A DNA stretch of 29,240 nt, taken from positions 1-29,240 of the IMG/VR virus record IMGVR_UViG_3300042907_001652, one strand, 5' to 3'. This DNA comes from a virus. The notes beneath the pieces were generated by a model. The model made no database searches, had not been told where the DNA came from, and saw only the letters and a program-made list of their open reading frames with translations. Below, piece by piece: positions 1 through 14,640 of this stretch. The translations under genes were made by a program, and so were the position numbers. Every line of letters begins with the position of its first letter. Within the stretch, counting starts at the first letter, position 1.

Positions 1-27
1 TCACAGGGGGTGGAGTCTGTGTAGAAT
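1..27 (-). promoter_or_regulatory. Left-edge copy of the GC-region promoter family (truncated)
   Basis: Read on the minus strand this stretch gives the -35-like TACACA followed by a 17-nt spacer that begins GACTCC and ends TGTGA exactly at base 1. The other copies in this segment carry TACAAT right after that spacer, so the -10 and the gene it serves should lie just outside the window to the left. The -10 cannot be seen, so this rests on the spacer match alone. Confidence 0.55.
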
Positions 28-88
28 TAGTCCACGATTTTTTTGAATCTTTTTGCCGTCCTATAACGTCCACCGTCCCCCTGTCCTG

Positions 89-147
89 GGCTACTATCAG
101 GTGGCGCATAAAAATCAGATTCCCTCTGAGGGAATCTGATAGTAGCC
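89..147 (-). terminator. Terminator hairpin nested in a GGCTACTATCA inverted repeat
   Basis: On the minus strand, just after the stop of the WYL_2-like gene, a 13-bp perfect stem (ATCAGATTCCCTC at 114-126 with GAGGGAATCTGAT at 128-140) is followed by TTTTTAT, which is the form of an intrinsic terminator. It sits inside a longer inverted repeat, GGCTACTATCAG at 89-100 and CTGATAGTAGCC at 136-147. The same outer arms recur at 1492-1556 and 2578-2636. The right arm shares its CTGAT with the terminator stem, so the two pairings compete. Confidence 0.75.
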
Positions 148-156
148 TCCATATTT

Positions 157-453
157 CTAGTTCATGTTCAGCATCTTCTCCGTCTTCTTGGAGTATGCTG
201 CGATCCCGTCAATCTTATCCTCACCGATCAGGATCCAGTCCTTCTTGAGAATGTCGAAGGCGCAGATGTAGCCCTCGGTGGTGTGACGAGTCCCGGTAGG
301 CAGGTTGCCTCCCAGTTGCTTGATGAACACGGGGTCAGCCGTGATCTCACGCGAGGTTGAGGTGCCGTCCTTCTTCCTGAACGACACGAACAGCGTATCG
401 TTGTTGGCGAGAGCAAGACGGAGAATCGTGGACATCGGAAGTTCGTTGATCAT
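157..453 (-). CDS. WYL_2/Sm-like SH3-barrel small protein
   Basis: This encodes 98 residues. The central stretch has the pattern VSFRKKDGTSTSREIT, followed about 25 residues later by FDILKKDW. That layout fits the small phage family called WYL_2 (formerly DUF2693), in which a strand pair around a KxDGT turn is followed by a strand ending in a W-S-F-like motif. The product at 2996-3349 and the C-terminus of 10560-11231 show the same layout. The ATG at 453 is chosen because AACAAT, a variant of the -10 used by the neighbours, lies exactly 6 nt before it. A second ATG six codons in is possible. It is the last gene of the segment, with a terminator 15 nt downstream. Its role is unknown; family members are short early proteins of unknown function. 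The family call is a reading of motifs, not a search. Confidence 0.65.
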   Translation of the reverse strand: MINELPMSTILRLALANNDTLFVSFRKKDGTSTSREITADPVFIKQLGGNLPTGTRHTTEGYICAFDILKKDWILIGEDKIDGIAAYSKKTEKMLNMN

Positions 454-480
454 GTTCGTATTGTTCCTTGTGTTTGGGTG
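454..480 (-). promoter_or_regulatory. Variant leaderless promoter for the 157-453 gene
   Basis: On the minus strand the sequence reads CCCAAACACA, a spacer, then AACAAT and GAACNN-type spacing of 6 nt to ATG at 453. The -10 (plus-strand ATTGTT at 460-465) departs from the TACAAT of the other copies, and the CACTCCC block is not recognisable. This is the weakest member of the promoter family. Confidence 0.4.
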
Positions 481-485
481 AACTT

Positions 486-514
486 CCTCCCGGCCCCACA
501 GTGGGGCCGGGAGG
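486..514 (-). terminator. Perfect GC-rich hairpin after the 532-921 gene
   Basis: A 14-bp perfect stem, CCTCCCGGCCCCAC at 486-499 with GTGGGGCCGGGAGG at 501-514, has a one-base loop. It lies 18 nt after the stop codon of the minus-strand gene at 532-921 and before the promoter of the next gene. There is no U-run, so it may be a barrier or 3'-end protecting hairpin rather than a standard terminator. Confidence 0.5.
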
Positions 515-531
515 CTACATGCACCACCATG

Positions 532-921
532 TTAGATCGGAAAGTTGACCTTGCCAAACTCGGCCAAGTGTCGGCGCAGGCATTCCTCCACGATGTCCTG
601 CAGCGGCATCACACGGATGCCCGTTTCGCGGAAAGAGGTGTCCGATGCCTTGGCGTAGTAGGACACAGATCCGTCACGGATGCTGTCCACGAACTCCTGC
701 CAATCCAAACCCAGTTCCGTCACGATCATGTGAACGAGGGTCTTCTCGGCATCGGTGAACCAGTCGAACGGCAGGGACACGGTGATCTCGCACAGGGCGA
801 GGGCCGCGTTGATCTCGGCGGGTTCGTGCTTGAACCGCTCGGAATCGTTGGCGGTGAGGATGAGGGACAGAACGAGGTCATCAATCTTGGCGAGGCGGAC
901 GGGCTTGGTGGTGTTCTTCAT
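532..921 (-). CDS. Hypothetical small protein, 129 residues
   Basis: I do not recognise this protein. It starts MKNTTKPVRLAKIDDLVLSL, is acidic, and looks mostly helical, with amphipathic segments such as FTDAEKTLVHMIVTELGLDW. There is no signal peptide, membrane segment or metal-binding motif. The ATG at 921 is supported by TGATACAAT ending 6 nt upstream and by the start AAGAACACCACC, which is shared with the neighbouring gene at 1003-1401 although the two proteins are otherwise unrelated. It is monocistronic, with its own promoter and a hairpin after the stop. Codon use is GC-rich like its neighbours. Confidence 0.7.
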   Translation of the reverse strand: MKNTTKPVRLAKIDDLVLSLILTANDSERFKHEPAEINAALALCEITVSLPFDWFTDAEKTLVHMIVTELGLDWQEFVDSIRDGSVSYYAKASDTSFRETGIRVMPLQDIVEECLRRHLAEFGKVNFPI

Positions 922-957
922 GGTGGTATTGTATCAGGTCGGGGGGAGTGTGTGTAG
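922..957 (-). promoter_or_regulatory. GC-region promoter, copy for the 532-921 gene
   Basis: On the minus strand: TACACA, a 17-nt spacer starting CACTCCCCCC and ending in TGA, then TACAAT (plus-strand ATTGTA at 928-933), then ACCACC and ATG. With transcription starting about 6-7 nt after the -10, the first base of the RNA would be at or next to the A of the start codon. Confidence 0.7.
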
Positions 958-960
958 AAA

Positions 961-993
961 GGGGGAGAAAGATTTCCAGTTTCTTTCTCCCCC
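961..993 (-). terminator. Hairpin between the 1003-1401 gene and the next promoter
   Basis: A 12-bp perfect stem, GGGGGAGAAAGA at 961-972 with TCTTTCTCCCCC at 982-993, lies 9 nt after the stop of the minus-strand gene at 1003-1401. It separates that gene from the promoter of the 532-921 gene. No clear U-run follows it on the minus strand. Confidence 0.5.
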
Positions 994-1002
994 CACAGGG
1001 GC

Positions 1003-1401
1003 TCACATGCGGATCTTCGATGCCTGTTCCTTCACGATTTCGTAGGCGAAGCGAACGGCCTCCTCGTCCAAGTAATCGAAGAAGATCTTCGGGCAAGCGA
1101 TGGAGAGCGGGACGATGTTGTACTGCGCGTCCTCTCCGGCCATGATGGCGTTCCCGTAGATCGGGCGACCTGCGAGACAGGAGGCGCGGACGTTGAGCGG
1201 GGCGCCCTTGAGCATGGCCTCCTCGTCAACCCACAGGCAGGAGTTGTAGTTCTCGTTCAGGGGCACACGCGCCACGATGTCGCAACCGCCACCGATGACG
1301 CCGTACATGGACGACAGGCTGTCGGTGATTTCGATGACGGAGACCTTGGTGGCGGTGTTGACGAGGATGAGAGCGGCGGGGATGTTGGTGGTGTTCTTCA
1401 T
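1003..1401 (-). CDS. DUF3846-like protein
   Basis: This encodes 132 residues. The middle of the protein, roughly residues 25-95, carries YGVIGGGCDIV, then LWVDEEAMLKGAPLN, then LAGRPIYGNAIM. That order (an xVGG turn, a DEE...LKG stretch, and a G-x-P-I-x-G-x-A/V end) is the hallmark of DUF3846, a small domain common in phages and plasmids and often next to antirestriction genes. Its biochemical role is not established. The ATG at 1401 lies 6 nt after TACAAT and begins with AAGAACACCACC, like the 532-921 gene. It is monocistronic, with hairpins on either side. The family assignment is by motif recognition only. Confidence 0.7.
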   Translation of the reverse strand: MKNTTNIPAALILVNTATKVSVIEITDSLSSMYGVIGGGCDIVARVPLNENYNSCLWVDEEAMLKGAPLNVRASCLAGRPIYGNAIMAGEDAQYNIVPLSIACPKIFFDYLDEEAVRFAYEIVKEQASKIRM

Positions 1402-1437
1402 ACGAAGATTGTATCACACGAAGGGGAGTGTGTGTAG
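1402..1437 (-). promoter_or_regulatory. GC-region promoter, copy for the 1003-1401 gene
   Basis: On the minus strand: TACACA, a 17-nt spacer starting CACTCCCC and ending GTGTGA, TACAAT (plus-strand ATTGTA at 1408-1413), then CTTCGT and ATG at 1401. It has an extended -10 (TGATACAAT). The block CGTCCCATAACGTCC at 1468-1482 lies further upstream, as it does in the copy upstream of 2487 and the copy at the left edge. Confidence 0.7.
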
Positions 1438-1491
1438 AATTGAGAACGAATTATTTCATTTCTTTGGCGTCCCATAACGTCCAGGGCCGGC

Positions 1492-1556
1492 GGGCTACTA
1501 TCACGCGCCGTCCTATAATAAAATCAAGCAGGTCCTAGGACCTGCTTGATAGTAGC
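1492..1556 (-). terminator. Terminator palindrome nested in a GGCTACTATCA inverted repeat
   Basis: A perfect 28-nt palindrome, with arms ATCAAGCAGGTCCT and AGGACCTGCTTGAT, covers 1523-1550. On the minus strand it is followed by TTTTATTAT. This is a strong intrinsic terminator immediately after the stop of the 1557-1697 gene. The outer arms GGGCTACTATCA (1492-1503) and TGATAGTAGC (1547-1556) repeat those at 89-147 and 2578-2636, while the inner palindrome is different in each copy. Confidence 0.75.
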
Positions 1557-1697
1557 TCAGCCCTCGCTGGCCACTTCCCTTTTCCCCTCCCTCCGCGCCT
1601 TCCGGGGGTCTCGGCTCTTCTTGCCCCAGGTCTTGGGGCGCAGCCGGATTCCTTCGCGGAAAGCATCGTGGACGAATTTGCCGGGTCGGTGGTTCAT
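1557..1697 (-). CDS. Small basic hypothetical protein, 46 residues
   Basis: A short gene starting MNHRPGKFVHDAF and ending EVASEG. It is very rich in Arg and Lys (for example KKSRDPRKARREGKR), which suggests nucleic-acid or ribosome contact, though that is inference. Its ATG overlaps the TGA of the upstream gene (ATGA) exactly as that gene overlaps the one before it, so the three form a translationally coupled operon read from the promoter at 2488-2523. A strong terminator begins right after its stop. The coupling and the terminator are the reasons for calling it real despite its length. Confidence 0.6.
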   Translation of the reverse strand: MNHRPGKFVHDAFREGIRLRPKTWGKKSRDPRKARREGKREVASEG

Positions 1698-1924
1698 TGT
1701 CGTAGCGTCCTTTCTATCTTGGCCTGCAGGCTCTGTAGCGTCCTGCGTTCATCGTTGGCCTCGGTGCGGAAGTCATCATGCCGCTCTTCCGTGTAGGTGT
1801 TGATTTCTAGCATCGTGTCCACGAGGCCCCGAAACACGAGGCGATCTAGGACAATCAATTCTTTCCTTGTCAAGCCCACCCCGATGGTCGGGGTGGGCTT
1901 GATCCGTTCGATGGTCGGGATCAT
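1694..1924 (-). CDS. Hypothetical coiled-coil-like protein, 76 residues
   Basis: It starts MIPTIERIKPTPTIGVGLTR and continues with a highly charged, probably helical C-terminal half containing EERHDDFRTEANDERRTLQ and SLQAKIERTL, which could form a coiled coil. The start is fixed by the ATGA overlap with the stop of the 1921-2487 gene. A perfect hairpin in the coding DNA (CAAGCCCACCCCGA with TCGGGGTGGGCTTG, around 1871-1901) falls just inside its 5' end and would sit over the early codons of the mRNA. Function unknown. It is the middle gene of a three-gene coupled operon. Confidence 0.6.
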   Translation of the reverse strand: MIPTIERIKPTPTIGVGLTRKELIVLDRLVFRGLVDTMLEINTYTEERHDDFRTEANDERRTLQSLQAKIERTLRQ

Positions 1925-2487
1925 TCGGCCTTCCCCCGGACGATGATCCACAGCAGGGCTTGCAGCGTGGCGGGGGCCATGCAGACGGCACCCGTTCCGG
2001 CGATGGTGCGGATCGCGTCCGCAATGGCCCGGTACTCGGTCGCGTTGGGCGCATCCTTGCCCAGTCCCGCAGCGCGGCACATCCACACATCCACCACCAC
2101 CGCGTCACGGTCCCCGGCGATGGCACGGGCAAACGCGTTCGTCTTGGGGCCGCGCAGACCGTTGAAGCCCTGCCGGACGCAGCGGTCGGCAGCGTCCACG
2201 TGGGAGCGGAGGCCCTTCGGCGTGATGCCCTGCGCGTACTGGTACGCCTTCGCCTTATTGTGCGCCCAAGTGACGCGGGGCGAGAACGCGGAGACAACGG
2301 ACGCGGACACTTCCATGCTCCACTCGGGGCGCAGGACGCGCAGCGACTCCGCGAAGTCTCCGGCCTCAACGTACCACTTCTGCGCGGCAGCGTAGTCGAA
2401 GAGGGTAGCCGATGCGAGGTGGCTGATGAACGACTCGATGGCGCGGGTGCGGACGGTTTCGTAGCGGTTGGTGCGGGTGGTGCTCAT
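1921..2487 (-). CDS. DUF7178-like conserved phage protein
   Basis: This encodes 188 residues counted from the ATG at 2487. A longer reading upstream to 2604 exists but would run through the promoter. Around residues 60-140 it carries FSPRVTWAHNKAKAYQYAQG, then RGPKTNAFARAIAGD and VVVDVWMCRAAGL. I know this arrangement from a family of phage proteins (DUF7178, frequent in actinobacteriophages) that looks like a helix-hairpin-helix fold related to base-excision glycosylases. No catalytic function is established. The start is supported by TACAAT 6 nt upstream and by the first codons AGCACCACC. It is the first gene of a three-gene ATGA-coupled operon. The family name comes from memory of its motifs. 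Confidence 0.6.
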   Translation of the reverse strand: MSTTRTNRYETVRTRAIESFISHLASATLFDYAAAQKWYVEAGDFAESLRVLRPEWSMEVSASVVSAFSPRVTWAHNKAKAYQYAQGITPKGLRSHVDAADRCVRQGFNGLRGPKTNAFARAIAGDRDAVVVDVWMCRAAGLGKDAPNATEYRAIADAIRTIAGTGAVCMAPATLQALLWIIVRGKAE

Positions 2488-2525
2488 GCGTACATTGTAA
2501 CACATGATGGGGAGTGTGTGTAGAA
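2488..2525 (-). promoter_or_regulatory. GC-region promoter for the 2487-1557 operon
   Basis: On the minus strand: AATTC, TACACA, a 17-nt spacer starting CACTCCCC, TGTTACAAT (plus-strand ATTGTA at 2494-2499), then GTACGC and ATG. It differs from the promoter of the 2996-3349 gene by one base in the spacer. The upstream module includes CGTCCTATAACG at 2555-2566 and the nested inverted repeat at 2578-2636. Confidence 0.75.
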
Positions 2526-2577
2526 TTGGTGGCGAGAAATTATAAATTCTTTCGCGTCCTATAACGCATCCAGGGCC

Positions 2578-2636
2578 GGCTACTATCAGGCGCAGACCAT
2601 CCAATCCTCACAAATGCGCGCATTTGTGATAGTAGC
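2578..2636 (-). repeat. Nested inverted repeat, third GGCTACTATCA copy
   Basis: The outer arms GGCTACTATCA (2578-2588) and TGATAGTAGC (2627-2636) enclose a perfect 22-nt palindrome with arms TCACAAATGCG and CGCATTTGTGA at 2608-2629. Unlike the other two copies there is no U-run after the palindrome on the minus strand, so terminator function is uncertain. The outer arms hold consecutive stop codons TGA TAG TAG. Confidence 0.6.
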
Positions 2637-2644
2637 TGCCCCCA

Positions 2645-2696
2645 AACAACCTAGCCCCGAACGAATCGGGGCAGGGACGAATCCTCTTCGGTTGTT
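2645..2696 (-). terminator. Two-step hairpin after the membrane-protein gene
   Basis: An outer stem, AACAACC (2645-2651) with GGTTGTT (2690-2696), encloses an inner stem, GCCCCGA (2654-2660) with TCGGGGC (2666-2672). It lies between the stop of the 2713-2943 gene and the nested repeat at 2578-2636. It is probably a 3'-end structure. There is no long U-run. Confidence 0.4.
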
Positions 2697-2712
2697 AACA
2701 AGCACCACCTCG

Positions 2713-2943
2713 TTATTTGCGAGTGTTGCCCCGGTGGCCGTAGGCCACAAACAGAATCCCATCCGGGCTTCCTGCAAACAGCATCGTGAAGAAACAGAGG
2801 AAGCAGGTGGAGGGCAGGAGCGCCCACCACAGCCATGCGTGGGGAGCGGGCTGGGTCAGCGCCCAGACCATCACGCCCGAAACGAATGAGCCGAGGAGGA
2901 TGACGAGGGCAGAGAAGAGACGATTGCGAATGGTGGTGTTCAT
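2713..2943 (-). CDS. Small membrane protein, two predicted membrane segments
   Basis: This encodes 76 residues starting MNTTIRNRLF. Two hydrophobic segments are plain: roughly residues 9-29 (ALVILLGSFVSGVMVWAL) and 36-56 (AWLWWALLPSTCFLCFF), separated by a short turn with prolines, with a charged C-terminal tail. It is likely an inner-membrane protein. No family is recognised, but its size and topology would fit phage immunity, holin-like or superinfection-exclusion roles; none is shown here. The start is supported by TACAAT 6 nt before the ATG and the shared AACACCACC codons. It is monocistronic. Confidence 0.65.
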   Translation of the reverse strand: MNTTIRNRLFSALVILLGSFVSGVMVWALTQPAPHAWLWWALLPSTCFLCFFTMLFAGSPDGILFVAYGHRGNTRK

Positions 2944-2978
2944 GTGCGTATTGTACCGTATGAGGGGGAGTGTGTGGG
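2944..2978 (-). promoter_or_regulatory. GC-region promoter for the membrane-protein gene
   Basis: On the minus strand: CCCACA in the -35 position, a 17-nt spacer starting CACTCCCCC, TACAAT (plus-strand ATTGTA at 2950-2955), then ACGCAC and ATG at 2943. The -35 hexamer is the most degenerate of the well-aligned copies, while the CACTCCC block and the 6-nt spacing are kept. Confidence 0.65.
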
Positions 2979-2995
2979 AAAGTATTCCCGAAAGT

Positions 2996-3349
2996 TTAGT
3001 GATTGTTCTCCACGCAGTCCGCGTCGATTCCGCAGACTTCCACCTGCGACACGCGGAAGGAACGCAGTCCGCCGCTCATGTAGTCGAAGTAGACGATGTT
3101 GTAGTTTGCGAGGTCGGCGGACTCGGATTCGCGGATGGAGCGGATATCGGACTCCGTACCGTACTTGCCCACGAGCGTGGGGTTACGGGTGCAGACTCGG
3201 CTGGTGCGGGTACCGTCATTCTTGATGTACTGGACGCGCACCCACCCGGAGTCGAGCGCGGTGTAGAGGAACGCAGCGCGCTCCCACACGGGGAGGGTAC
3301 GGGCGGGGAGGGGGAGGACGATGAGGTTACGGGTGGAGGTGGTGTTCAT
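2996..3349 (-). CDS. WYL_2/Sm-like SH3-barrel protein
   Basis: This encodes 117 residues from the ATG at 3349. After a variable N-terminus, residues about 35-55 read VRVQYIKNDGTRTSRVCTR and residues about 90-110 read NIVYFDYMSGGLRSFRVSQV. The KxDGT-T-SR-T turn and the late D...RSFRV strand are what I associate with the WYL_2 (DUF2693) Sm-like SH3-barrel family of phages. It resembles the 157-453 product in layout, suggesting a diverged duplication within the segment. The start is fixed by TACAAT 6 nt upstream; the longer reading to 3397 would consume the promoter. It is the first minus-strand gene and is divergent from the 3463-3720 gene. Function unknown. Confidence 0.65.
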   Translation of the reverse strand: MNTTSTRNLIVLPLPARTLPVWERAAFLYTALDSGWVRVQYIKNDGTRTSRVCTRNPTLVGKYGTESDIRSIRESESADLANYNIVYFDYMSGGLRSFRVSQVEVCGIDADCVENNH

Positions 3350-3387
3350 GCGTACATTGTAACACATGATAGGGAGTGTGTGTAGAA
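3350..3387 (-). promoter_or_regulatory. GC-region promoter for the 2996-3349 gene
   Basis: On the minus strand: TACACA, a 17-nt spacer starting CACTCCC, TGTTACAAT (plus-strand ATTGTA at 3356-3361), then GTACGC and ATG. It is divergent from the plus-strand copy at 3428-3462, with about 45 nt between the two -35 regions. Confidence 0.75.
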
Positions 3388-3427
3388 TTGGCAGCAAATA
3401 TTTCGGTGGAAAGTTTGGAGGTATTTA

Positions 3428-3462
3428 AACACACACTCCCCCAAGTGTGATACAATACTCGC
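3428..3462 (+). promoter_or_regulatory. GC-region promoter, only plus-strand copy
   Basis: AACACA at 3428-3433, a 17-nt spacer starting CACTCCCCC and ending GTGTGA, TACAAT at 3451-3456, then ACTCGC and ATG at 3463. Finding the same element in front of a gene on the other strand shows that it travels with gene starts and is not a strand-specific repeat. Confidence 0.75.
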
Positions 3463-3720
3463 ATGAGCACCCCCACTACCAACCACGAGCACGAACACTT
3501 CCCCTGCGACTGCCACCGCCCCGAGCACGCCTACACGGACAGCCTCTGCCCGATGTGCGAGGAGCAGCGCGAGCGCGAGCGCGAGGAGCGCAGGGCGCAG
3601 GATGACGCGGAGCGCAAGGCCAATAACGATGCGTTCAGCGATGCGGCTAGCCGGATGAGCCGCGAAGATTGGGACGCCGATAACGACTGGCTAGCAAGCG
3701 CGGGATGGGGCGAGATGTAA
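3463..3720 (+). CDS. Small Cys/His-containing charged protein, 85 residues
   Basis: It starts MSTPTTNHEHEHFPCDCHRP. The N-terminal 32 residues hold CDC, several His and CPMC, which could bind one zinc ion. A very charged helix follows (QREREREERRAQDDAERK), then an acidic, Trp-containing end. No family is recognised. The promoter with TACAAT 6 nt before the ATG supports the start. It is the only plus-strand gene of the GC-rich segment, and the last before the composition changes. Confidence 0.6.
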   Translation: MSTPTTNHEHEHFPCDCHRPEHAYTDSLCPMCEEQREREREERRAQDDAERKANNDAFSDAASRMSREDWDADNDWLASAGWGEM

Positions 3721-4025
3721 GCCCACCGCCTACCCACCAGCCACACGCCGGCCCCGAAGCACGCCCCTACCCGTTACACGGGTCGAATGATGGGCAGCAG
3801 AGGGCCGGCGATGTTATTAATAAAGAATTAACATAGGGGGGTAGGCCCTGGGGGTGTGTCCGAGTAGTAATTTGGGTCCCATACACGGGGGGGTTATCGG
3901 ACGGGCTAGCCACACCGACCCCTTCTAATTTTCTCTAATATTCTCAAAAAAACTTTTTGGCCCCCTAAGCCTCTCAAAGTCCATTTATAAAACGACCCCC
4001 TTTTTCAAAATACATGGTATGGCAT
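3721..4025. other. Gene-free junction with structured GC-rich half
   Basis: No convincing gene is present. The first part can fold: GCCGGCCC near 3747-3754 pairs with GGGCCGGC at 3802-3809, enclosing ACCCG/CGGGT at 3769-3783, and ATGTTA/TAACAT follows around 3811-3835. This could be a long terminator for the 3463-3720 gene or a structured RNA. From about 3815 onward the base composition shifts from GC-rich to AT-rich, with some G- and C-runs still present to about 3990. Confidence 0.45.
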
Positions 4026-4058
4026 AAAAAAAATTTGGGCCCCCGAAGGAGCCCAAAA
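4026..4058 (-). terminator. Intrinsic terminator of the 4104-4682 gene
   Basis: On the minus strand, TTTGGGCTCC, a TTCG loop and GGGGCCCAAA are followed by TTTTTTTT (plus-strand A-run at 4026-4033). It is a textbook intrinsic terminator closing the leftmost late minus-strand gene. Confidence 0.8.
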
Positions 4059-4103
4059 GTTTATGATAAAATTTTTAAGTTATTTTAATCTTTGATTGTA
4101 TGA

Positions 4104-4682
4104 TTAACTTCGTCTAACTGGTTTAACTTTGCTGGAATCGACTAGTATTGTGGTAGGACTGTCACCACCTTGATCATACCAAGCATCAAAAAGAGGATTG
4201 CCGGGAGATTTTCTTCCTTTCATAAAATCTTCGACATGATCTGCAACATCATGATAGTGTATGCCGGGAAAGGCATGTATTGGTATATGAACTTCCGGTC
4301 CTCTGCTTCCATCTGGTCTGACATGTCTTCCAGAAATGTTTATATCGCTTGGATCCCAGTGGGTTTTACCAAATTCAAATGGTGCGTCTATATCTAAAAT
4401 TTCAAAAGGAAGATGTTGTGGTTTCTTTTTTATTCTTTCTTCTTTTATCTCTTCCTTTTCTTTTATTATATCAGATGATACTACTTTGCCTTTTCCAAGT
4501 TTCATTGCTTTAGGATCAGATTTTTTTGTCTCATCTTCATTATTATTTTCTTTAGAAGAAGGAATTATTCCACCTTCTCCAAATTCTGTTTCTTGGACTT
4601 CATTTAAAGTTTTTTGAAGACAAATAATTTTTTCTTGAAGGTTTTCACAAAGATTTTTATAATAGTTTGTTAGGTAGTCCAT
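4104..4682 (-). CDS. Candidate capsid-targeted internal protein, 192 residues
   Basis: The first 28 residues (MDYLTNYYKNLCENLQEKII and then a segment ending TLNE) closely match the start of the 6713-8578 product and resemble that of the 8607-9995 product. The bodies of the three proteins differ. An amphipathic N-terminal helix ending in LxE fits the capsid-targeting sequences of T4 internal head proteins, which the gp21 protease cuts after LxE or IxE. The middle is charged and low-complexity (about residues 35-85). The C-terminal ~100 residues look folded and His/Asp-rich, with no known domain. TATAAATA lies 5 nt before the ATG. Packaging is inference; the shared leader is seen directly. Confidence 0.7.
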   Translation of the reverse strand: MDYLTNYYKNLCENLQEKIICLQKTLNEVQETEFGEGGIIPSSKENNNEDETKKSDPKAMKLGKGKVVSSDIIKEKEEIKEERIKKKPQHLPFEILDIDAPFEFGKTHWDPSDINISGRHVRPDGSRGPEVHIPIHAFPGIHYHDVADHVEDFMKGRKSPGNPLFDAWYDQGGDSPTTILVDSSKVKPVRRS

Positions 4683-4695
4683 AAAATTATTTATA
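4683..4695 (-). promoter_or_regulatory. T4-type late promoter, 5 nt before the ATG
   Basis: TATAAATA on the minus strand (4688-4695) followed by ATTTT and ATG. The 13 bases are identical to those upstream of the 6713-8578 gene. T4 late RNAs start about 6 nt past this box, so the message would have essentially no leader and no Shine-Dalgarno site. Confidence 0.75.
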
Positions 4696-5206
4696 ATATT
4701 GTCGTGTAATCTCTGTGAGGTCTGCCTTTTGATGAAATAAACCGATCTACATGCTCTGGTTCCATGAGTTCATGTGATATGCTCTTTGCGGTTGCATGTA
4801 CACTTCGTGGGTCAGCGATGTCGATTCGATATGTTGCATCTGGAATCTTGTTTGCATGACGACGAACTGTTTCGTGAACCTGACGAGTGTTTCCTTCAAA
4901 ATTTATGTCCTTGCCGTCAGCATAGCTACGAACCCATCCAGCATCAAAAAGAAATTTGAGTGGATGTCCTTCAATGGTATCAACACTGTCCTTTACATCT
5001 TTCAAATTTGCCTTTAAAATTTGGGGATCAATTCCAAAATTTTTATGATTTTTTATGAAGTAAGTTTGATGACTGAAATCATCTTCATCAAACGCCAATA
5101 CCTTTCCAGTCTCTGGATGATACCACGAAGATCCCTGTACCTCTGAGATATGAGGGTCTACGGGTTTGGCTTTGGCTTCTGTGAGGAATTCAATGAAGGA
5201 TAGCAT
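4691..5206 (-). CDS. Candidate capsid-targeted protein with FIEFLTEA leader
   Basis: This encodes 171 residues from the ATG at 5206, starting MLSFIEFLTEAKAKP. An upstream ATG at 5221 lies inside the late promoter and is not used here. The hydrophobic FxxFLxEA start is typical of many T4-like head and internal proteins and contains the gp21-type cleavage motif LTE|A. The body carries WYHPETGKVLAF, then FGIDPQIL, then DAGWVRSYADG, a pattern I associate with a widespread phage protein of unknown function. GATAAATA lies 5 nt upstream of the ATG. The gene ends 8 nt before the 4682 start, so the two probably share transcripts. Packaging is inference. Confidence 0.65.
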   Translation of the reverse strand: MLSFIEFLTEAKAKPVDPHISEVQGSSWYHPETGKVLAFDEDDFSHQTYFIKNHKNFGIDPQILKANLKDVKDSVDTIEGHPLKFLFDAGWVRSYADGKDINFEGNTRQVHETVRRHANKIPDATYRIDIADPRSVHATAKSISHELMEPEHVDRFISSKGRPHRDYTTIL

Positions 5207-5219
5207 AAGAATATTTATC
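5207..5219 (-). promoter_or_regulatory. Late promoter variant GATAAATA
   Basis: GATAAATA on the minus strand (5212-5219), TTCTT, ATG. It has the same 5-nt spacing as the 4682 and 8578 starts. It settles the start codon choice, because the upstream in-frame ATG overlaps the box. Confidence 0.65.
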
Positions 5220-5276
5220 AAAACCGAAAAAACGGAGGGGTGGCGGGTGACCTAAATAGTCTTTTAAGGAGATACT

Positions 5277-5435
5277 ATGCTAGATAAGATTAAGAATTTT
5301 GTGAAGTCTGTTTCGTCCACCACTTGGATCGTCGTTGCCGTGGGTGTATTGGCTGTGGTTATTTTGACCCTATCAAGCCAGAGCAAGGGCAAGGAGGCTG
5401 GTCCTGCAGCCGTAGAGACTCCTGCTACCAAGTGA
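5277..5435 (+). CDS. Single-pass membrane microprotein, 52 residues
   Basis: This small plus-strand gene lies between two minus-strand blocks. It starts MLDKIKNFVKSVSSTTW and then has one hydrophobic segment at residues about 18-33 (IVVAVGVLAVVILTL), followed by a Lys/Ala/Pro-rich tail ending ETPATK. An AAGGAG Shine-Dalgarno site sits 6 nt before the ATG, and CTAAATAG (5252-5259) upstream resembles a degenerate late promoter. A strong terminator follows at 5457-5490. It is probably an inner-membrane peptide. A lysis or virion accessory role is possible but unproven. Its codons are more GC-rich than those of the flanking genes. Confidence 0.65.
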   Translation: MLDKIKNFVKSVSSTTWIVVAVGVLAVVILTLSSQSKGKEAGPAAVETPATK

Positions 5436-5456
5436 GTCTATAAGTCACTGTAGAAC

Positions 5457-5492
5457 AAAAAGAGATCCAAGAAATTGGATCTCTTCTTATTT
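5457..5492. terminator. Bidirectional intrinsic terminator
   Basis: A 10-bp perfect stem, AGAGATCCAA (5461-5470) with TTGGATCTCT (5475-5484), has a GAAA tetraloop. It is flanked by AAAA on the left and TCTTATTTT on the right, so it can terminate the microprotein gene and transcripts from the opposite strand. Confidence 0.8.
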
Positions 5493-5577
5493 TAAATTTT
5501 ATTTAATTTTTATGCTCTTGGATTCAGCAATCTATTAGTTTGAGCATATTTTTTTTATATTGCATTTCAGCAAATGT

Positions 5578-6708
5578 TTAAGACCTTGTATTGTCGTATG
5601 GTGTCATGCCATATTTTCTGTATTGTTCTGGAGTTTGTGGAATTAGTCCCATGGGAACATCTTCTCTTTTTTCTTGTGGAATTCCATATCTTCTTCTTTG
5701 TTCTGGAGTTTGTGGAATGATACCGTATTTTTCTGATTCTGGTGTCATTCCATATCTTCTTCTTTGTTCTGGAGTTTGTGGAATGATACCGTATTTTTCT
5801 GATTCTGGTGGAAGTATATTAATACCATCATCATATGAAACAGATTCTGGATCCAGATCTGGACTATATGGAAGTTTAAATGGACTAGGCATTTTTTGCT
5901 TGGAATTAAATTTTCCAAATTGATTTACCATATCAACATGGTTTGAATCTAATTTTCCATTTTCCCTGAACTGGCGAAGACCTTCTTGATACATAGCATC
6001 ATTCATTGCCAATTTTTCTCTATCTGTTCTTACAGCCATGCTTTTTTGTGTTCTAAGACTTGTTGGATCTTCTTGCCAACTTCTGGCAAAACTACCAGCA
6101 GCAGCCGGTCCACCCATTGCATTATTTTTTCTAGAATCGATAGTGGCATTGATTGTATTGAGAGCACTTACCTTTGAAGCCCCCAAAGCAGCACCGCCTC
6201 TTCCTTGTCTAACTGCATCTTGGCTATTTGAATATTGTGCGGCTCGCATGTCTTCTAGTCTTTTGGTGTTCAAAGTTGGTGCAACTCTTGCCTGATCTTC
6301 TGCAGACAATGTGGACATAGCATTTATATCTGAATAACGTGTAGATCCACCTTGGCCTGCCACTCCAGTTACTGCTCCTGGAGCTGCACTTCTGGCAATT
6401 GATTGACTACTAAATCTTGCTCTGGCTGCAAGATTGGGTGCAGTTTTTGCAAGTTCATCATAATTTTCTCTAGATCTTGCACGATCTAAAGAATCTTTAG
6501 TTGCTTGGTTAGCAACATCCAAATAACTTTTACCAGTTGTTGGATTTACTTTATTTTGACGTGCAGCACGATCTGCATCCATTTTTGCAATAGTATCCAA
6601 TAAAGCTTTGCTATCATCTTTTGTTTTTTGAGATAACGCTTCGTGTAGACGAAGTTGGTTTGCAGCGTCTTGAAGATTGTTTGAAAATATTAGGTGGTCT
6701 TTGAACAT
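5578..6708 (-). CDS. Putative virion/cargo protein with C-terminal YGIIPQTPEQ repeats
   Basis: This encodes 376 residues, rich in Ala, Gln, Arg and Asp, and probably largely disordered. The last 80 residues contain a tandem 22-residue repeat with the core SEKYGIIPQTPEQRRRYGM: two near-identical copies and two degenerate ones (ending MGLIPQTPEQYRKYGM). The underlying DNA repeat is exact over 64 nt with a period of 66. It starts 4 nt after the stop of the 6713-8578 gene and has no clear Shine-Dalgarno site, so it is probably expressed by coupling from the same late promoter. Its N-terminus (MFKDHLIFSNNLQDAANQL) is helix-forming but lacks an early LxE motif. Function unknown. A cargo role is suggested only by location. 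Confidence 0.65.
   Translation of the reverse strand: MFKDHLIFSNNLQDAANQLRLHEALSQKTKDDSKALLDTIAKMDADRAARQNKVNPTTGKSYLDVANQATKDSLDRARSRENYDELAKTAPNLAARARFSSQSIARSAAPGAVTGVAGQGGSTRYSDINAMSTLSAEDQARVAPTLNTKRLEDMRAAQYSNSQDAVRQGRGGAALGASKVSALNTINATIDSRKNNAMGGPAAAGSFARSWQEDPTSLRTQKSMAVRTDREKLAMNDAMYQEGLRQFRENGKLDSNHVDMVNQFGKFNSKQKMPSPFKLPYSPDLDPESVSYDDGINILPPESEKYGIIPQTPEQRRRYGMTPESEKYGIIPQTPEQRRRYGIPQEKREDVPMGLIPQTPEQYRKYGMTPYDNTRS
5619..5810 (-). repeat. 66-nt tandem coding repeat
   Basis: Two copies at 5681-5744 and 5747-5810 are identical over 64 nt, with a degenerate partial copy near 5619-5660. They encode the 22-residue YGIIPQTPEQRRRYG repeats at the C-terminus of the 5578-6708 product. Exact DNA identity points to recent duplication or homogenisation. 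Confidence 0.85.
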
Positions 6709-6712
6709 TTTT

Positions 6713-8578
6713 TTATCTTTTGACTTTACTTTGATTATATTGCATTAACATCAAGTTACGTTGTTTTGGTGACATTGTATTAAATTTTTCTGCACCATAG
6801 AGACGCAAGAACAATTTATCTAAATTATTTTGATCCATGGTAGATTTATCTTTAGATAAAATAATTTCTTGATCTTTAGGAGGTACTGGTGTTGGGGTTG
6901 GAGTGGGTGCCTTGGAGTATCTTCTGCCCATTCTATTCGCGTACATCTGAGCAAGTTTTCTTGCATTTTCTAATTCTGCTGAAGAAGATTGTTTATCTGT
7001 ATCTTCATCATCAGGAAAATCTGCAAGATCCATGGGTTGATTCATTCCACCAGTGGATATAGTTTGTCCAGAAAGTTCAGCTTCCCGAGCCTTACGTTGT
7101 TGGGTATCTCTTTGTCCTTGTTTTTCTCTTTCGGCCATCATTTGATTTAACATTTTGGCTTGACGATTTAGTCTCGCAGTTTCTTCTGGGGTTTGTCCAC
7201 TGTTATCTTCTGAAAATCTAAAATTTTCAGGATTTGTTGTAAAACCCATTTTACCACTTTCTTTGTCAAAAGCAGTATCGGCTAAACGTCCTCCAAAAAA
7301 TTTATGAACTTCGTTATTGCTTATGGCAGAAGTCATCATTTCATGTTGTTCTTCTGTAGTAAGATTATTCCAAGCCTCTGATTCGGGAACAACATATGTT
7401 GTTCTTCTAGATTGGGCTCTTCCCATTTCAGGAATTTTAGTTTCTGTTGCATCTGGTTCTGGTGTATTTTGGTTCATACCAGTTAGTTTCATGATCGTAT
7501 CAGTAACTTCTTTTGAATTTAATGAAGTAGCTGGTGTTGGTTCGGGGTTATCAGACGCAGAAGGCTCATTTTTTGTTGAGTCTTTTTGTGGTCTTGTTAA
7601 AGACAGAAGTGCTTTATTTTTAAAAAACTTGGCTGCCAATGGATTTTTAAGTTGATTCCAAGCATCCAATACATTTGGGTTTCGCATATCTTCACTTCCA
7701 TATACTCCTTGAGTACCTTCACCTTCTAAATAGCGATTACCTCTAAAATCTGGGTTATCTGGTATAAAACCTCTCTCCCTTGCCTTTGCGACTCTTTCAG
7801 CAAATTGTGGGCTATCTTTAAAAGTAGAAAAATTACGAGTAGTGGCTGTTGGTTCTGCTGTTGGTTCTGCTGTTTGAGAAGGCTTAGCACCTTTTCTTCC
7901 GGGACCTACAGGCTGTGCTTCACCACTTCCCTGACGGGCTTTTTCAACTTCCAATTCTCTATCATATGCTGCCAAAGACTTAACTGGTTGCGCAGATGTT
8001 GTTGGAGCGGATGATGGAGTGGAAGAAGGAGCAGCTTCTTTTGCTTGATTTTGCAAGCCTACAGCATATTCCTGTGCTCGTTTGTAAGCATCAACTCCTC
8101 TTTGAGCAACTTGATTTGATGTCATGGAAGTATCCATTGGCTTTCCAGCATCACCACCCAATGTGTCAATGACTCCACGGCGCATTGCTTCAATCTTACG
8201 AGGATCTTCTCCAAGTTTTTGTGCATATCTTTCAACCCAGTCACCAGCAACGCGATCAGTTTTATAATCTGATGATTGTTTTATGGATGGATCTAATTCT
8301 ACCTTAGCACTTGCACCTTGTCTTCTGGCTAGTTCTGCCTGAGCATCTCTATATGCTTGATTTTGCTTATCATCTGGAATTGCTGGACCAAATGCATTTG
8401 ATCTCTTATTTTGTTTCATCTGATCACGAAGTTGTTCATCACTGAAAGTTTGCTGCCCTTGGCCAGTACCACTAAAGGTTGATGCAGGAGCATCTTCATT
8501 TAATAAATTTTGAAGAATGTTAATTTTGCTTTGATATTGTTCGCACAAATTTCTATAGTGGTTAGTTAGATAATTCAT
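6713..8578 (-). CDS. Candidate capsid-targeted large disordered protein
   Basis: This encodes 621 residues from the ATG at 8578, chosen because TATAAATA lies 5 nt upstream; the open frame continues to 8665 but that would remove the promoter. Its first ~30 residues (MNYLTNHYRNLCEQYQSKIN... LLNED) match the leader of the 4104-4682 product. The rest is rich in Gln, Glu, Asn, Pro, Thr and charged residues, with PTPTPVPP and repeated TAEPTAEPT stretches, which implies long disordered regions. LLNE|D resembles a gp21 cleavage site. No enzyme motif was seen. It is probably the first gene of a late unit with 5578-6708. Possible roles are an internal head protein, an ejection protein or a scaffold-like protein. 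Confidence 0.7.
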   Translation of the reverse strand: MNYLTNHYRNLCEQYQSKINILQNLLNEDAPASTFSGTGQGQQTFSDEQLRDQMKQNKRSNAFGPAIPDDKQNQAYRDAQAELARRQGASAKVELDPSIKQSSDYKTDRVAGDWVERYAQKLGEDPRKIEAMRRGVIDTLGGDAGKPMDTSMTSNQVAQRGVDAYKRAQEYAVGLQNQAKEAAPSSTPSSAPTTSAQPVKSLAAYDRELEVEKARQGSGEAQPVGPGRKGAKPSQTAEPTAEPTATTRNFSTFKDSPQFAERVAKARERGFIPDNPDFRGNRYLEGEGTQGVYGSEDMRNPNVLDAWNQLKNPLAAKFFKNKALLSLTRPQKDSTKNEPSASDNPEPTPATSLNSKEVTDTIMKLTGMNQNTPEPDATETKIPEMGRAQSRRTTYVVPESEAWNNLTTEEQHEMMTSAISNNEVHKFFGGRLADTAFDKESGKMGFTTNPENFRFSEDNSGQTPEETARLNRQAKMLNQMMAEREKQGQRDTQQRKAREAELSGQTISTGGMNQPMDLADFPDDEDTDKQSSSAELENARKLAQMYANRMGRRYSKAPTPTPTPVPPKDQEIILSKDKSTMDQNNLDKLFLRLYGAEKFNTMSPKQRNLMLMQYNQSKVKR

Positions 8579-8606
8579 AAAATTATTTATATACATAAAT
8601 ATCTTT
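8579..8606. promoter_or_regulatory. Bidirectional late promoter, 28-bp divergent gap
   Basis: The whole gap between two divergent genes is 28 bp. On the minus strand TATAAATA (8584-8591) is 5 nt from the ATG at 8578. On the plus strand CATAAATA (8594-8601) is 5 nt from the ATG at 8607. The two boxes are nearly back to back, and both messages would be leaderless. Confidence 0.75.
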
Positions 8607-9995
8607 ATGGACCATATCACTAAATTATACCAGAATCGTGCCAAAGTTTTACAAGAAGAAGTCAATCGTCTTGAAGGATTGTTAGAGGCTGTGGTCGATG
8701 CTCCTCCAATAAAAATGAGTCAGCGTACAAGAAATGAGGCTGCTTCAAACGCAAAAGCAGCTGCAGATGCGCAAGCAGCCGCAAAAGCAGCTGCAGATGC
8801 AGAAATTAAAAAAACTGAAGAAGCTAGAAAAGATATTGAAGAAAGACCAATTTTAGGTCGTATTGAATCGGGATTAAACTCAACTGGAGAGGCAATTAGT
8901 AATATAGGAAATGTTTTTGATAATCCATATGTACAGGCAGCAACAATCGGAACTCTAGGAAGTGTTGCTTATGGATTGGCAACTCCACGTATAATACCCG
9001 GTGCTCCAATGGATAAAACTGCTTCCAGTATATTTCATACACATAAATGGGATATGGGTGTAAATAAATATACTGGTCTTCCAGATACTTCTTATTCAAC
9101 AGTAGTACCAAAAGGAAAAAGATCTTGGAATATATTTACAAATCCATTAGGTTTTAGAGGAACATTAATGGATCGTATTGTGTCTAAAATAGGAAAACAA
9201 AAAGGTTTACAACAAGAAATAGCTAGCATAAAAGCCGTTGAAGAAGCTAAAGCAATTGCAGCCGCTAATGAACTTTCATTAGAAAGAACACAAAAAAAAT
9301 TAATTAGTCGTACTGCAAACAATATTCAACCCGGAGAAGTTGGGTTAAGTGGAGAGTTGTTGCGAGATCCAAATCTCAAAATTGGAGAAAGAGGATCCAT
9401 GAAAGATGCTGGTATAGATGTAGTACGCGAAAGAGTCAAAGCTGCAACTGCAACAGAAAGTGGTGTTGAGGGTGGTAGATTGACAGCTGGTGCAGAAAAA
9501 ATGTTAAGACAAAAAAATTCACCAGTATTAAGATCTATTGGAGCAATAACTCCAGAAGATGTAGAGATGGCAATGCAAGGCGCAAAAGATATTGCAATGA
9601 CTGGTAAAGAAGTTGCAGGTAAAGTTGGTAGAGCAGCAACTACACCTCTCCCCGGTTCTTCCAGTGCTGTTGTATCTGGGCTTTCTAAACTAGGTGCTGG
9701 AGTTGTAGGTGGATTGGCAGGAGAATATCTTGTTAAACCTGCAGCAGAAAAAGCAGGAGTATTTAAAGCCGTTGAATCTGGAACTAGATCAGCACTATCT
9801 GCTGCTCCTGATTGGGTAGCCAAAGTTGCAGATCCTGCTTTAGGTGCAGCTCAAGTTATACTAGATCCTCTTTCTTCGGCAGTGTCTGCTATGCAAAAAC
9901 CAATGGAACAAGGTGCTGAAAAAGAAGCAGAAGAATTAGTTAAAAGAGCAGGGTCACCTTCAAAAATTAGATTTACTGGAAAATCAAAAATTTAA
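8607..9995 (+). CDS. Candidate capsid-targeted Ala/Gly-rich protein
   Basis: This encodes 462 residues. The N-terminal helix MDHITKLYQNRAKVLQEEVN ... LLEA is related to the leaders of the 4104-4682 and 6713-8578 products and ends in a perfect gp21-type site, LLE|A. An Ala-rich coiled-coil-like stretch (AKAAADAQAAAKAAADAEIK) follows at about residues 48-75. Weakly hydrophobic Gly/Ala segments lie near residues 108-125 (VQAATIGTLGSVAYGLA) and 353-376 (GLSKLGAGVVGGLAGEYL), which might contact membrane. No enzymatic motif was found. It is read from a late promoter 5 nt upstream and is followed 4 nt later by the 10000-10185 gene. A role in DNA ejection or as an internal protein is plausible but inferred. 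Confidence 0.65.
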   Translation: MDHITKLYQNRAKVLQEEVNRLEGLLEAVVDAPPIKMSQRTRNEAASNAKAAADAQAAAKAAADAEIKKTEEARKDIEERPILGRIESGLNSTGEAISNIGNVFDNPYVQAATIGTLGSVAYGLATPRIIPGAPMDKTASSIFHTHKWDMGVNKYTGLPDTSYSTVVPKGKRSWNIFTNPLGFRGTLMDRIVSKIGKQKGLQQEIASIKAVEEAKAIAAANELSLERTQKKLISRTANNIQPGEVGLSGELLRDPNLKIGERGSMKDAGIDVVRERVKAATATESGVEGGRLTAGAEKMLRQKNSPVLRSIGAITPEDVEMAMQGAKDIAMTGKEVAGKVGRAATTPLPGSSSAVVSGLSKLGAGVVGGLAGEYLVKPAAEKAGVFKAVESGTRSALSAAPDWVAKVADPALGAAQVILDPLSSAVSAMQKPMEQGAEKEAEELVKRAGSPSKIRFTGKSKI

Positions 9996-9999
9996 TATT

Positions 10000-10185
10000 A
10001 TGAAAAGACTAGAAGATACAGTAAAAAAAGTATTGAACGAGAATGCCAACAAACCTTCTCCTCTTGCAGAGATCTATAAGAGATCTGCAGAGAGAGTAAA
10101 GTTTTTAGATCCTGCTGCACAGACTGCTGATACTATTGCAGCCAAGTATGGTAATATGTTCAAAAAGAAATCTAAGGATACTTAA
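10000..10185 (+). CDS. Small hypothetical protein with VLNEN leader motif, 61 residues
   Basis: It starts MKRLEDTVKKVLNENANKPS and is basic and helical throughout. The first 14 residues form an amphipathic helix ending LNE, like the leaders of neighbouring candidate cargo proteins, though the match is short. It begins 4 nt after the stop of 8607-9995 without a visible Shine-Dalgarno site, suggesting coupling. No family is recognised. Confidence 0.55.
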   Translation: MKRLEDTVKKVLNENANKPSPLAEIYKRSAERVKFLDPAAQTADTIAAKYGNMFKKKSKDT

Positions 10186-11417: not shown

Positions 11418-11453
11418 TTGACCAGTAGTTTGTGTGTGCTATTATTGTTCGCC
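11418..11453 (+). promoter_or_regulatory. Sigma70-like promoter for guaC, near-leaderless
   Basis: TTGACC at 11418-11423, a 16-nt spacer, TATTAT at 11440-11445, then only 8 nt to the ATG at 11454. There is no Shine-Dalgarno site in those 8 nt, so the RNA would start at or within a base or two of the start codon. Confidence 0.7.
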
Positions 11454-12468
11454 ATGATAGTAAACTACGAACCAAAACTAGATTATTCAGACGCACTTAT
11501 TGAACCAAGACTTTCAGATGTTAAGTCTCGCAAAGATGTAAATCTTGAAGTTGGTACTACTTTTAATTGTGGGTCTTTTTGGAATGGTGTACCAGTGATG
11601 GCCGCAAACATGTCCACTGTTGGAACACATCAGATGGCTCTTGTATTGTCAGAGTACAAGATGATTACTTGTTTGAAGAAGGGTGGTGAATACTATGTTA
11701 CTTTTGCCACTAGTTATCCAGACAAAGAAAAATATGTTTCGTTGACTCTGGGTTTGGATCCCGAAAGTAAATTGTTTGTTGATAATGCAAATATAAATGA
11801 TCCAACTTTTGTTTGTGTGGATGTTGCAAATGGTTACATGACAGAATTTCATAACTTTGTAAAGAAAGTGAGACAGAAATGGCCGAAGTCAATATTGATT
11901 GCAGGGAATATAGTAACCCCAGAGGGGGTCGTGGCATTGTCAGATGCTGGAGCCGATCTAGTAAAAGTGGGAATAGGGTCGGGGTCGATGTGCCTGACAC
12001 GCAGAGTAGCAGGAGTGGGATATCCCCAACTCTCGGCGGTCATAGAGTGTGTGGAAACCGCTGCAGCGTTAGGTATTGGGATCGTATCTGATGGAGGGAT
12101 TGTACATTGTGGCTGGGGCTGCATTTGTTATGGCTGGAGGTGCATTTGCAGGCCATGACGAGTGTGGTGGAGAAATTCGCCACTCCAATAATAACGCATC
12201 ACTCACGATGCTTCATTATGGTATGTCCAGCAAAACCGCAAATGAAAAATACAACGGAGGACTTAAGGATTACCGTGCTTCCGAGGGCCGCACTGTGGAA
12301 GTACCTTATCGTGGATCTGTACACCATACCGTTCAAGAAATTCTTGGTGGATTGCGCTCTGCTTGTTCGTATGTGGGCGCTTTTAATTTGCCTGAACTGT
12401 ATTCACGTGGTACAATGGTTAAGGTCAATCGTACTATAAACAATATTTTTGAGAATCACGAAATATGA
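11454..12468 (+). pseudogene. guaC: GMP reductase gene broken by an internal out-of-frame deletion
   Basis: GMP reductase converts GMP to IMP with NADPH. The first frame, from the ATG at 11454, carries VPVMAANMSTVGT, VCVDVANGY, IAGNIVTPEGV and the active-site loop GIGSGSMCLTRR with its catalytic Cys, then SDGG at 12087-12098. It then runs into a stop at 12156-12158. The rest continues in the +1 frame: GAAFVMAGGAFAGHDECGG, GMSSKTA, YRASEGRTVEVPYRG and ILGGLRSACSYVG, to the TGA at 12466-12468. Against known GMP reductases, about 13 residues should separate DGG from GA(D)FVM, but only 16 nt are present. That implies loss of 23 nt, including the conserved PGDVxKA stretch. Restoring 23 nt gives 345 residues, the length of human GMPR. 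A pseudogene, a strain variant and an assembly error are all possible. Confidence 0.85.
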
Positions 12469-13022: not shown

Positions 13023-13901
13023 TTAAGCCATCATTTCACCAGTATCGCGTTTATTTGTTTGAGCAATTTGTTTTAAGAATTCTTTTGCTTGTTCTCCTTT
13101 TTTTGGATCTTTGAATAATTGTAAAAGAATTGATGATTGTTTACTTTTATCGGTTTCTAGAAAATTTTTATATTTTTCAAAATCTTCATCTCTAAAATTA
13201 GGATCTAATAAAATTCCTGTTTTTTCAAAAAATCTCATTTTATTTTCACTCATGTGTGCCGCCAATTCTCCGGGAGATGTTACATACTTAGACATTTCAG
13301 ATGGTATGATAGGATCTTTATCACTATAATCATATCCTTTAGCATCTAAAGAAGAAGCTGGTCTATTTTTTGTTTTAAAAGTTTTTAATGCTAATGCATG
13401 TTGAAACTCATGCCAAAGAACATCGCTTAATGCACCAGTATCTTTTTTGTATTTTTCATTAGGTTGTAATTCATTTGATACTTTAGTTAAATCTTTTTTT
13501 ATTGCTTCCATGCCTTCAGGGTATGGAGATCTAGCATTTGTATTAACTACAATTTGTGGATTTTGTTTTTTATAATCTACAATATTATTAGTTTTTTTAT
13601 CTATCATTACTGTGCTTGGCGTTATTCCCAATGGATCAGTTGGTCTACGTGGTTGTAAAGCAACATCTATTTTTTCAGAATAATCATCCAATTCTATTGA
13701 TGGAAGATACCAATCTGGGTCAATTTCAGATGAATGTTGTGCTCTTCTTTGTTTTATACTTTCCAAATAATCTAATGCTTTTTGTGTTGATCCTAATCTA
13801 TTGGATAAAGCATCCATTGCGGAAATTTTATAAGTGCCATTTATTATACCTGTAGTATCTGATTGATTATTTTCTATAAGGTATTGTTTAAATCGAAGCA
13901 T
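13023..13901 (-). CDS. HExxH metallopeptidase-like protein with leader-like N-terminus
   Basis: This encodes 292 residues. Residues 164-168 form a zinc-binding HEFQH in the context LWHEFQHALALK. A downstream SPGELAAHMSE (Glu about 212) is a good candidate third ligand, as in gluzincins. The N-terminus MLRFKQYLIENNQ has the aromatic/hydrophobic FxxYLxE form found at the start of many T4-like head-packaged proteins, with LIE as a possible gp21 cleavage site. So the protein may be a protease carried in the head and delivered to the host, but no substrate or packaging evidence exists. AAAGG lies 9 nt before the ATG, and no TATAAATA box is visible. It is divergent from the Sm-deaminase gene. Confidence 0.65.
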   Translation of the reverse strand: MLRFKQYLIENNQSDTTGIINGTYKISAMDALSNRLGSTQKALDYLESIKQRRAQHSSEIDPDWYLPSIELDDYSEKIDVALQPRRPTDPLGITPSTVMIDKKTNNIVDYKKQNPQIVVNTNARSPYPEGMEAIKKDLTKVSNELQPNEKYKKDTGALSDVLWHEFQHALALKTFKTKNRPASSLDAKGYDYSDKDPIIPSEMSKYVTSPGELAAHMSENKMRFFEKTGILLDPNFRDEDFEKYKNFLETDKSKQSSILLQLFKDPKKGEQAKEFLKQIAQTNKRDTGEMMA

Positions 13902-13953: not shown

Positions 13954-14640
13954 ATGAACGTAAAACTATTTAGACTAAACTCGGGTGAAGAAATTCTCGC
14001 AAGATTTGAAGAGCAAACAGATTCTTGGCTCCTCAAGGATCCAGCAATTCTTATCCCAGTTGGTGAAGGTAATATTGGTCTAATGCCTTGGCTTATGTAC
14101 AGCAAGGCTTCTAAGGGTGTAACTATTCCCAAGACTTTTATTGCTTTTACTGTTGAGCCTCTTGATGAACTCAAGACTCAGTATGATTCCAGTCTCAATA
14201 GAGGACTCGTTACTCCGTCCAAGGCCGTCGATAAGACGGGTGGACTGAAGCTGACGTTGAAAAATATGAATATAGATCATGTGATTGAAAATTATCTTCC
14301 TATTGCCAAGCCACTGTCGATGGCAATGGAAAGACAAAAGAAGCACATATCTTTGATCATCTATAAGCGCAAGATTATCGCGGTGGGTCAAAATGTTTTT
14401 AAGACCCACCCCGATACTGTGCGTTTGGGATATCGTTGCGCAGACATGCATTCTGAATTAGATGCATACAGAAAAGTTCCAAAGAGTCTACGTGGAGAAA
14501 AGTTGGTTTTGTTGAATTTTAGATTCAATAGATTTGGGTCTTTTAGAAACTCTAAACCCTGTCCAGTATGCACTAAATGGTGTGCAGAAATTTTTAATAA
14601 AATATACTATACCACAGATCAGGGAATACAGATTCTATAA
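13954..14640 (+). CDS. Sm-like domain fused to a deoxycytidylate/cytidine-deaminase-like domain
   Basis: This encodes 228 residues. Residues 1-75 (MNVKLFRLNSGEEILARFEE, LLKDPAILIPV, IGLMPWLMYSKA) match the 25016-25288 protein in layout and fit the small Sm/LSM-like barrel proteins common in T4-like marine phages. Residues from about 120 form a deaminase-like domain: HISLIIYKRKIIAVGQN, then H166-S-E168 (the HxE zinc/proton-shuttle site), then PC203-P-V-C206 (PCxxC), and IYYTTDQGI. The Sm part in relatives usually stops after a G-L-K-L-type end, which here (residues 97-101) runs straight into the deaminase without a stop. The internal ATG at 14266 has no Shine-Dalgarno site. The substrate could be a nucleotide or RNA. 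The deaminase call is by motif. Confidence 0.7.
   Translation: MNVKLFRLNSGEEILARFEEQTDSWLLKDPAILIPVGEGNIGLMPWLMYSKASKGVTIPKTFIAFTVEPLDELKTQYDSSLNRGLVTPSKAVDKTGGLKLTLKNMNIDHVIENYLPIAKPLSMAMERQKKHISLIIYKRKIIAVGQNVFKTHPDTVRLGYRCADMHSELDAYRKVPKSLRGEKLVLLNFRFNRFGSFRNSKPCPVCTKWCAEIFNKIYYTTDQGIQIL

Follow-up and report, generated by a model that had tools for sequence, protein, structure and literature searches.

Exchangeable N-terminal leaders ending in an (L/I)xE motif on candidate head cargo proteins of uncultured T4-like phages

A block of genes with shared N-terminal leaders

The window, the whole stretch of DNA analysed here, is a 29,240-base record of an uncultured virus. It contains a block of putative cargo genes whose products begin with related leader peptides. 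Two minus-strand genes carry a long leader, referred to here as class II: a gene for 192 aa at positions 4104-4682, with leader MDYLTNYYKNLCENLQEKIICLQKTLNE (4599-4682; predicted cut after E28, then V), and a gene for 621 aa at 6713-8578, with leader MNYLTNHYRNLCEQYQSKINILQNLLNE (8495-8578; then D). Short, T4-CTS-like leaders, referred to as class I, were found on two further minus-strand genes, one for 171 aa at 4691-5206 (MLSFIEFLTE, 5177-5206, predicted cut before A11) and one for 292 aa at 13023-13901 (MLRFKQYLIE, then N), the latter with a conserved HExxH in its body. These four leaders had been named in the original prediction and were present as described. The plus-strand gene at 8607-9995 (462 aa; leader MDHITKLYQNRAKVLQEEVNRLEGLLE, 8607-8687, predicted cut before A28), also part of that prediction, does belong to the long-leader class, as a divergent and distant member only (class II HMM E ~0.002-0.004).

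The earlier proposal of two leader classes proved too few, as at least three were seen. The minus-strand gene at 5578-6708 (376 aa), which starts 4 nt downstream of 6713-8578 and was absent from the earlier list, joins the set through a class III leader, MFKDHLIFSNNLQDAANQLRLHE, followed by A (6640-6708, predicted cut before A24). Leader lengths were about 10 residues in class I, 23-35 in class II and about 23-34 in class III. The predicted mature N-termini are VQETEFGEGG (4104-4682), AKAKPVDPHISEVQGSSWYHPETGK (4691-5206), ALSQK (5578-6708), DAPASTF (6713-8578) and AVVDAPPIK (8607-9995). The bodies in the window matched no meaningful Pfam or PHROGs family. The C-terminus of the 5578-6708 product (window 5606-5810) contains PESEKYGIIPQTPEQRRRYG repeats, seen as self-matches.

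The plus-strand gene at 10000-10185 (61 aa) had been listed as a member of the set and was rejected as a leader protein. Its family reads LEDTIRxVQQKYKNRPSPL, and in a comparison of about 31 relatives its 'LNE' occurred only in those closest to the window. This LEDTIR...PSPL gene is better described as a conserved neighbour and locus marker, being found in 35 of 78 class II loci and mostly adjacent to the leader genes.

Phage group and variability of the locus

A 91,461-base contig (G001) was 99.87% identical to the window across their overlap, so that more of the same phage could be read from it. It contains a T4-like core, with gp32 and the gene order portal-gp21-gp22-gp23; gp23 shares about 54% identity with its cyanophage counterpart. 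The window and G001 differ at 11418-12158, where an ORF that by eye looks like IMP dehydrogenase/GMP reductase is shortened in the window and 357 aa long in G001, and at 13954-14640, a single ORF in the window and two in G001; both differences probably reflect small indels introduced when one of the records was sequenced or assembled. Window positions 18978-24503 encode a protein of 1841 aa with RCC1-like repeats (Pfam), kept in the related contig G002, which is likely a virion or adhesion protein.

When the window was compared with its relatives, the flanks were about 83-96% identical and the cargo block was partly replaced, with cargo exchanged at a constant position bounded by flanks of 83-94% identity. 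In relative L002 the place of 4104-4682 is taken by three class II genes in tandem, and the body of 4104-4682 is a fusion of two bodies, each encoded by a separate leader-bearing gene in L002. At the site of 13023-13901, two relatives carry class I phage-lysozyme genes, which would be odd as cytoplasm-bound cargo.

Spread of the long leader

The class II leader has the consensus form MNYLTNYYKNLSEQLQ...LNE, followed by A. A leader alignment scan of IMG/VR recovered 76 loci, and a leader HMM detected 171 leader ORFs across 78 stretches of uncultured T4-like phages, 47 of which contained two to six leader ORFs each. BLAST grouped 152 class II bodies into 66 families, so the occurrence of one leader on different bodies in related phages, as the original prediction anticipated, was borne out. 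Class I assignments rely on position and shared bodies, since across whole genomes a class I regex discriminates weakly by itself (3 matches vs 1.0 expected in G001, 7 vs 1.1 in G002).

Searches of cultured phages recovered no long leaders. A profile, used beside BLAST because BLAST masks low complexity, gave no match in the whole genomes of T4, P-SSM2, S-SKS1, S-SRM01, S-CRM01 and HTVC008M. A tblastn search of 50,697 phage records likewise gave no leader, and tblastn against cultured phages recovered no relatives of the leader, queried both as its consensus and as one individual sequence, or of six cargo proteins; one of these searches returned two Gordonia helicase matches only, at chance level (E=3). 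Among GTDB genomes, 72 pattern matches were found and none was confirmed as a leader. No description of the long leaders was found in open-access literature.

Body function was examined with 65 representatives searched against Pfam, PHROGs and PADLOC, which returned only Dockerin_1 (three times), EF-hand and DUF7178, with no PADLOC match. AlphaFold gave an unreliable model of the 13023-13901 product (pLDDT 42) and a fair one of the commonest cargo body (pLDDT 76); Foldseek matched the latter model to no known fold at E<=0.001. Neither AlphaFold nor Foldseek searches pointed to an injected function for any body.

Some ORFs combine leaders. The composite proteins at L065 3885, L079 3868 and L063 6001 each join two leaders in a single ORF, either a class III-like one and then a class II one or both of class II, with LxE after each leader; cleavage may yield two cargo proteins from each. 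What may be a fourth type of leader, KYSWIHxLNxAAxxAxLLNE followed by A, was observed at L061 1297, L023 2838, L064 2205, L024 1455 and G002 29297-29950.

A conserved cut motif and a gp21-type protease

A motif [LI]xE was present within residues 20-38 of 136 of 138 non-redundant class II leaders, as compared to 49.9 +/- 5.1 in shuffled sequences (maximum 66; z ~17). The same motif was found in 40 of 211 (19%) other genes of the two larger, related contigs, and in 7 of 134 cases at residues 61-79 of the same proteins. In class II the predicted cut site has L or I at P3, E at P1, a free P2 and most often A at P1', and the motif E lies mostly at residue 23/24, 27/28, 31 or 34/35, tracking leader length. 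LSE13 and LQE17 also occur inside class II leaders, so that LxE is in part a property of the helix; these two may be additional sites of cleavage or may just reflect what the helix is made of. Helix periodicity as the whole explanation of LxE was rejected, as the motif position tracks leader length and the start of the body.

The matching segment of gp23 from the same phages reads HL[TIYAV]E/D or YLTE/I (a slash marks the cut, predicted or known), as compared to FLTE65/A in T4 gp23. A gp21-like protease elsewhere in the genome, which the original prediction had called for, was found in G001 at 52433-52870 (Peptidase_S77, E 4e-40). All 17 uncultured leader records with gp23 also contained gp21, and the other records searched contained neither gene, as expected of fragments. 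As far as is known, every T4-like phage has gp21 and gp23; finding them here is thus necessary for the proposed cleavage and not specific to it. In addition, a 508-aa protein at L013 4665-6188 (G002 24665-26191) was observed to have a copy of the capsid cut-site region, IELLEDMSAGGMAVAGDSAGYNTGGVSGFDPVMAPMQRRKP, the remainder being unlike the capsid protein.

Exchange of leaders in front of one body

The strongest evidence is that a single body can be found with more than one kind of leader. Class I leaders precede the GLKKAL body in G002 and L078 (MKSFIQYLQE/SGLKKAL, MKSFKQHLHE/SGLKKAL) and class II leaders precede it in most cases (...VDLLE/AGLKKAL, ...RYLSE/AGLKKAL, ...VLEAQLNE/GGLKKAL). 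The body of 5578-6708 was found behind all three classes: class I in L057 (MQSFKQFLLNE/APLSPAT), class II in L028 (NLIE/AELSKKT) and class III in the window (RLHE/ALSQKT). Classes II and III alternate on the bodies RPTFIPLT and ETEDVIIDD, and classes I and II on DPEFLEKK. In the counted body pairs the switch of leader falls exactly after LxE; a few weaker pairs, in which the alignment stops short of the junction, were left out.

T4 IPII and IPIII start with MKTYQEFIAE/A. The class I leaders of 4691-5206 and 13023-13901 resemble this CTS, with the likeness extending over a short motif only, and classes II and III have no sequence similarity to it. The targeting role of the T4 CTS has been established by fusion and mutation (PMC9026906). 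Given that class I resembles a leader with a proven targeting role and that bodies are shared across classes, classes II and III likely do the same job.

We therefore consider it probable that the leaders are exchangeable capsid-targeting propeptides, removed by gp21, that feed a large and hypervariable set of head cargo proteins. An unlikely alternative is that they are uncut docking helices which fix proteins in the virion, for example in the inner shell, neck or tail. AlphaFold gives residues 3-30 as a single helix, and virion proteins commonly dock through an N-terminal helix attached to a variable body. Uncut docking is disfavoured by the pattern of fixed P3 and P1 with variable P2 and P1', as at the gp23 cut site, and by body exchange exactly after LxE.

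A late-promoter motif five nucleotides from the start codon

The motif NATAAATA-N5-ATG occurs at four sites on both strands of the window (shuffle mean 0.36), all of them the starts of 4104-4682, 4691-5206, 6713-8578 and 8607-9995 and none elsewhere. On the minus strand, TATAAATA lies 5 nt upstream of the ATG of 4104-4682 (4688-4695) and of 6713-8578 (8584-8591), and GATAAATA 5 nt upstream of that of 4691-5206 (5212-5219); on the plus strand, CATAAATA lies 5 nt upstream of the ATG of 8607-9995 (8594-8601). The genes at 6713-8578 and 8607-9995 are divergent, and the 28 nt between their start codons hold two back-to-back promoter motifs. Over all leader loci the promoter-to-ATG spacing was 5 nt in 104 cases, with every other spacing at 14 or fewer. 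The genes at 5578-6708 and 13023-13901 have no late-promoter motif of their own; the former is probably co-transcribed with 6713-8578, which lies 4 nt upstream.

The sequence TATAAATA is the T4 late promoter, positions -13 to -6 (PMC1524935), and NATAAATA is the late promoter named for S-PM2 (PMC2984593). T4 numbering places the A of the ATG at +1, and the late mRNAs are thus predicted to be leaderless. The KYSWIH-type genes of L061, L023, L064 and L024 also have TATAAATA-N5-ATG at their start. Another promoter-like arrangement was observed in an early-looking, high-GC stretch at window 1-3850 (G001 1-9300; GC 0.55-0.63 vs about 0.35), where a cassette ACACACTCCC...TACAAT/TATACT-N6-ATG recurs with many small, mostly minus-strand ORFs downstream. 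Its commonest distance to ATG is 6 nt (n=11), and early mRNAs may therefore also be leaderless.

The constant distance of exactly 5 nt, together with a codon bias in the leaders (ACA at codon 5 in 43 of 52, TAC at codon 8 in 44 of 52), would fit a role of the shared N-termini in expression or inside the cell, for example in the efficient start of a leaderless late mRNA or in binding a host factor, with the proteins acting outside the virion. We regard such a role as improbable, given that other leader codons vary synonymously (six codons are used for Leu11), that three unrelated leaders interchange, a feature for which a signal for translation has no need, and that the promoterless genes 5578-6708 and 13023-13901 retain a leader. 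That the shared 5' ends are recombination landing sites with a functionless peptide fits the rapid turnover of bodies between close relatives and is nonetheless very improbable, as leader codons change synonymously with the peptide preserved, the pattern and cut motif persist in divergent leaders (8607-9995, for instance), and purifying selection on the peptide in independent lineages is already indicated.

Proposed route of the cargo proteins

Under the capsid-targeting propeptide reading, each cargo protein would be made late in infection with an N-terminal helix, which would attach to the core of scaffold inside the prohead as it grows. Cleavage by the gp21-type protease after the terminal (L/I)xE of the leader would then release the cargo within the head, and at infection the released cargo would exit together with the DNA. 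As modules, leaders and bodies exchange independently of one another, which would let cargo be added or swapped at the locus. The original prediction of head-targeting leaders cut after (L/I)xE agreed with all sequence-level checks; from these we infer that the genes are expressed late and that their products bind the scaffold, are cleaved, packaged and injected.

A broader interpretation, which we offer tentatively and hold to be possible rather than probable, is a general plug-in code for virion cargo, in which a late promoter, a start codon at +1, one of several unrelated address helices and an LxE site would make up a portable module to which nearly any protein could be joined by recombination. 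Leader classes may in that case bind different sites on the scaffold and so set the dose of a cargo or its place in the head.

The collection of about 170 genes in 66 families provides a listing, drawn from sequence only, of putative head-packaged and probably injected proteins in uncultured T4-like phages. The families are a plausible store of counter-defence and takeover proteins for the first minute of infection, and the exact mature N-termini predicted here are open to a check by virion metaproteomics.

Comparison with known systems

In T4, the CTS-bearing internal proteins IPI-IPIII and Alt are similar to the proteins described here in having a short N-terminal leader, in our case a predicted propeptide, that ends in (L/I)xE/A and unrelated, hypervariable bodies. 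The T4 CTS system also shares the gp21-type protease, and class I resembles the CTS over a short motif. Unlike T4, the uncultured phages have leaders of class II (23-35 aa) and of class III without likeness to the CTS, many more cargo families, and a late promoter whose position makes the ATG the predicted +1. T4 and the cultured cyanophages and pelagiphage searched gave no match to the long leader.

In giant phages of the phiKZ/SPN3US type, ejection proteins are described as cut by a gp21-like prohead protease, which removes the N-terminal propeptides of many head cargo proteins behind a Glu motif (PMC9026906; PMC5694885). The proteins described here resemble them in this arrangement, the cut being predicted in our case. 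The phages studied here differ in being T4-like with gp23, and in having a few leader classes that are reused and swapped over tens of bodies. The leader set suggests that the T4 capsid-targeting principle reaches unrelated and mutually replaceable leader sequences.
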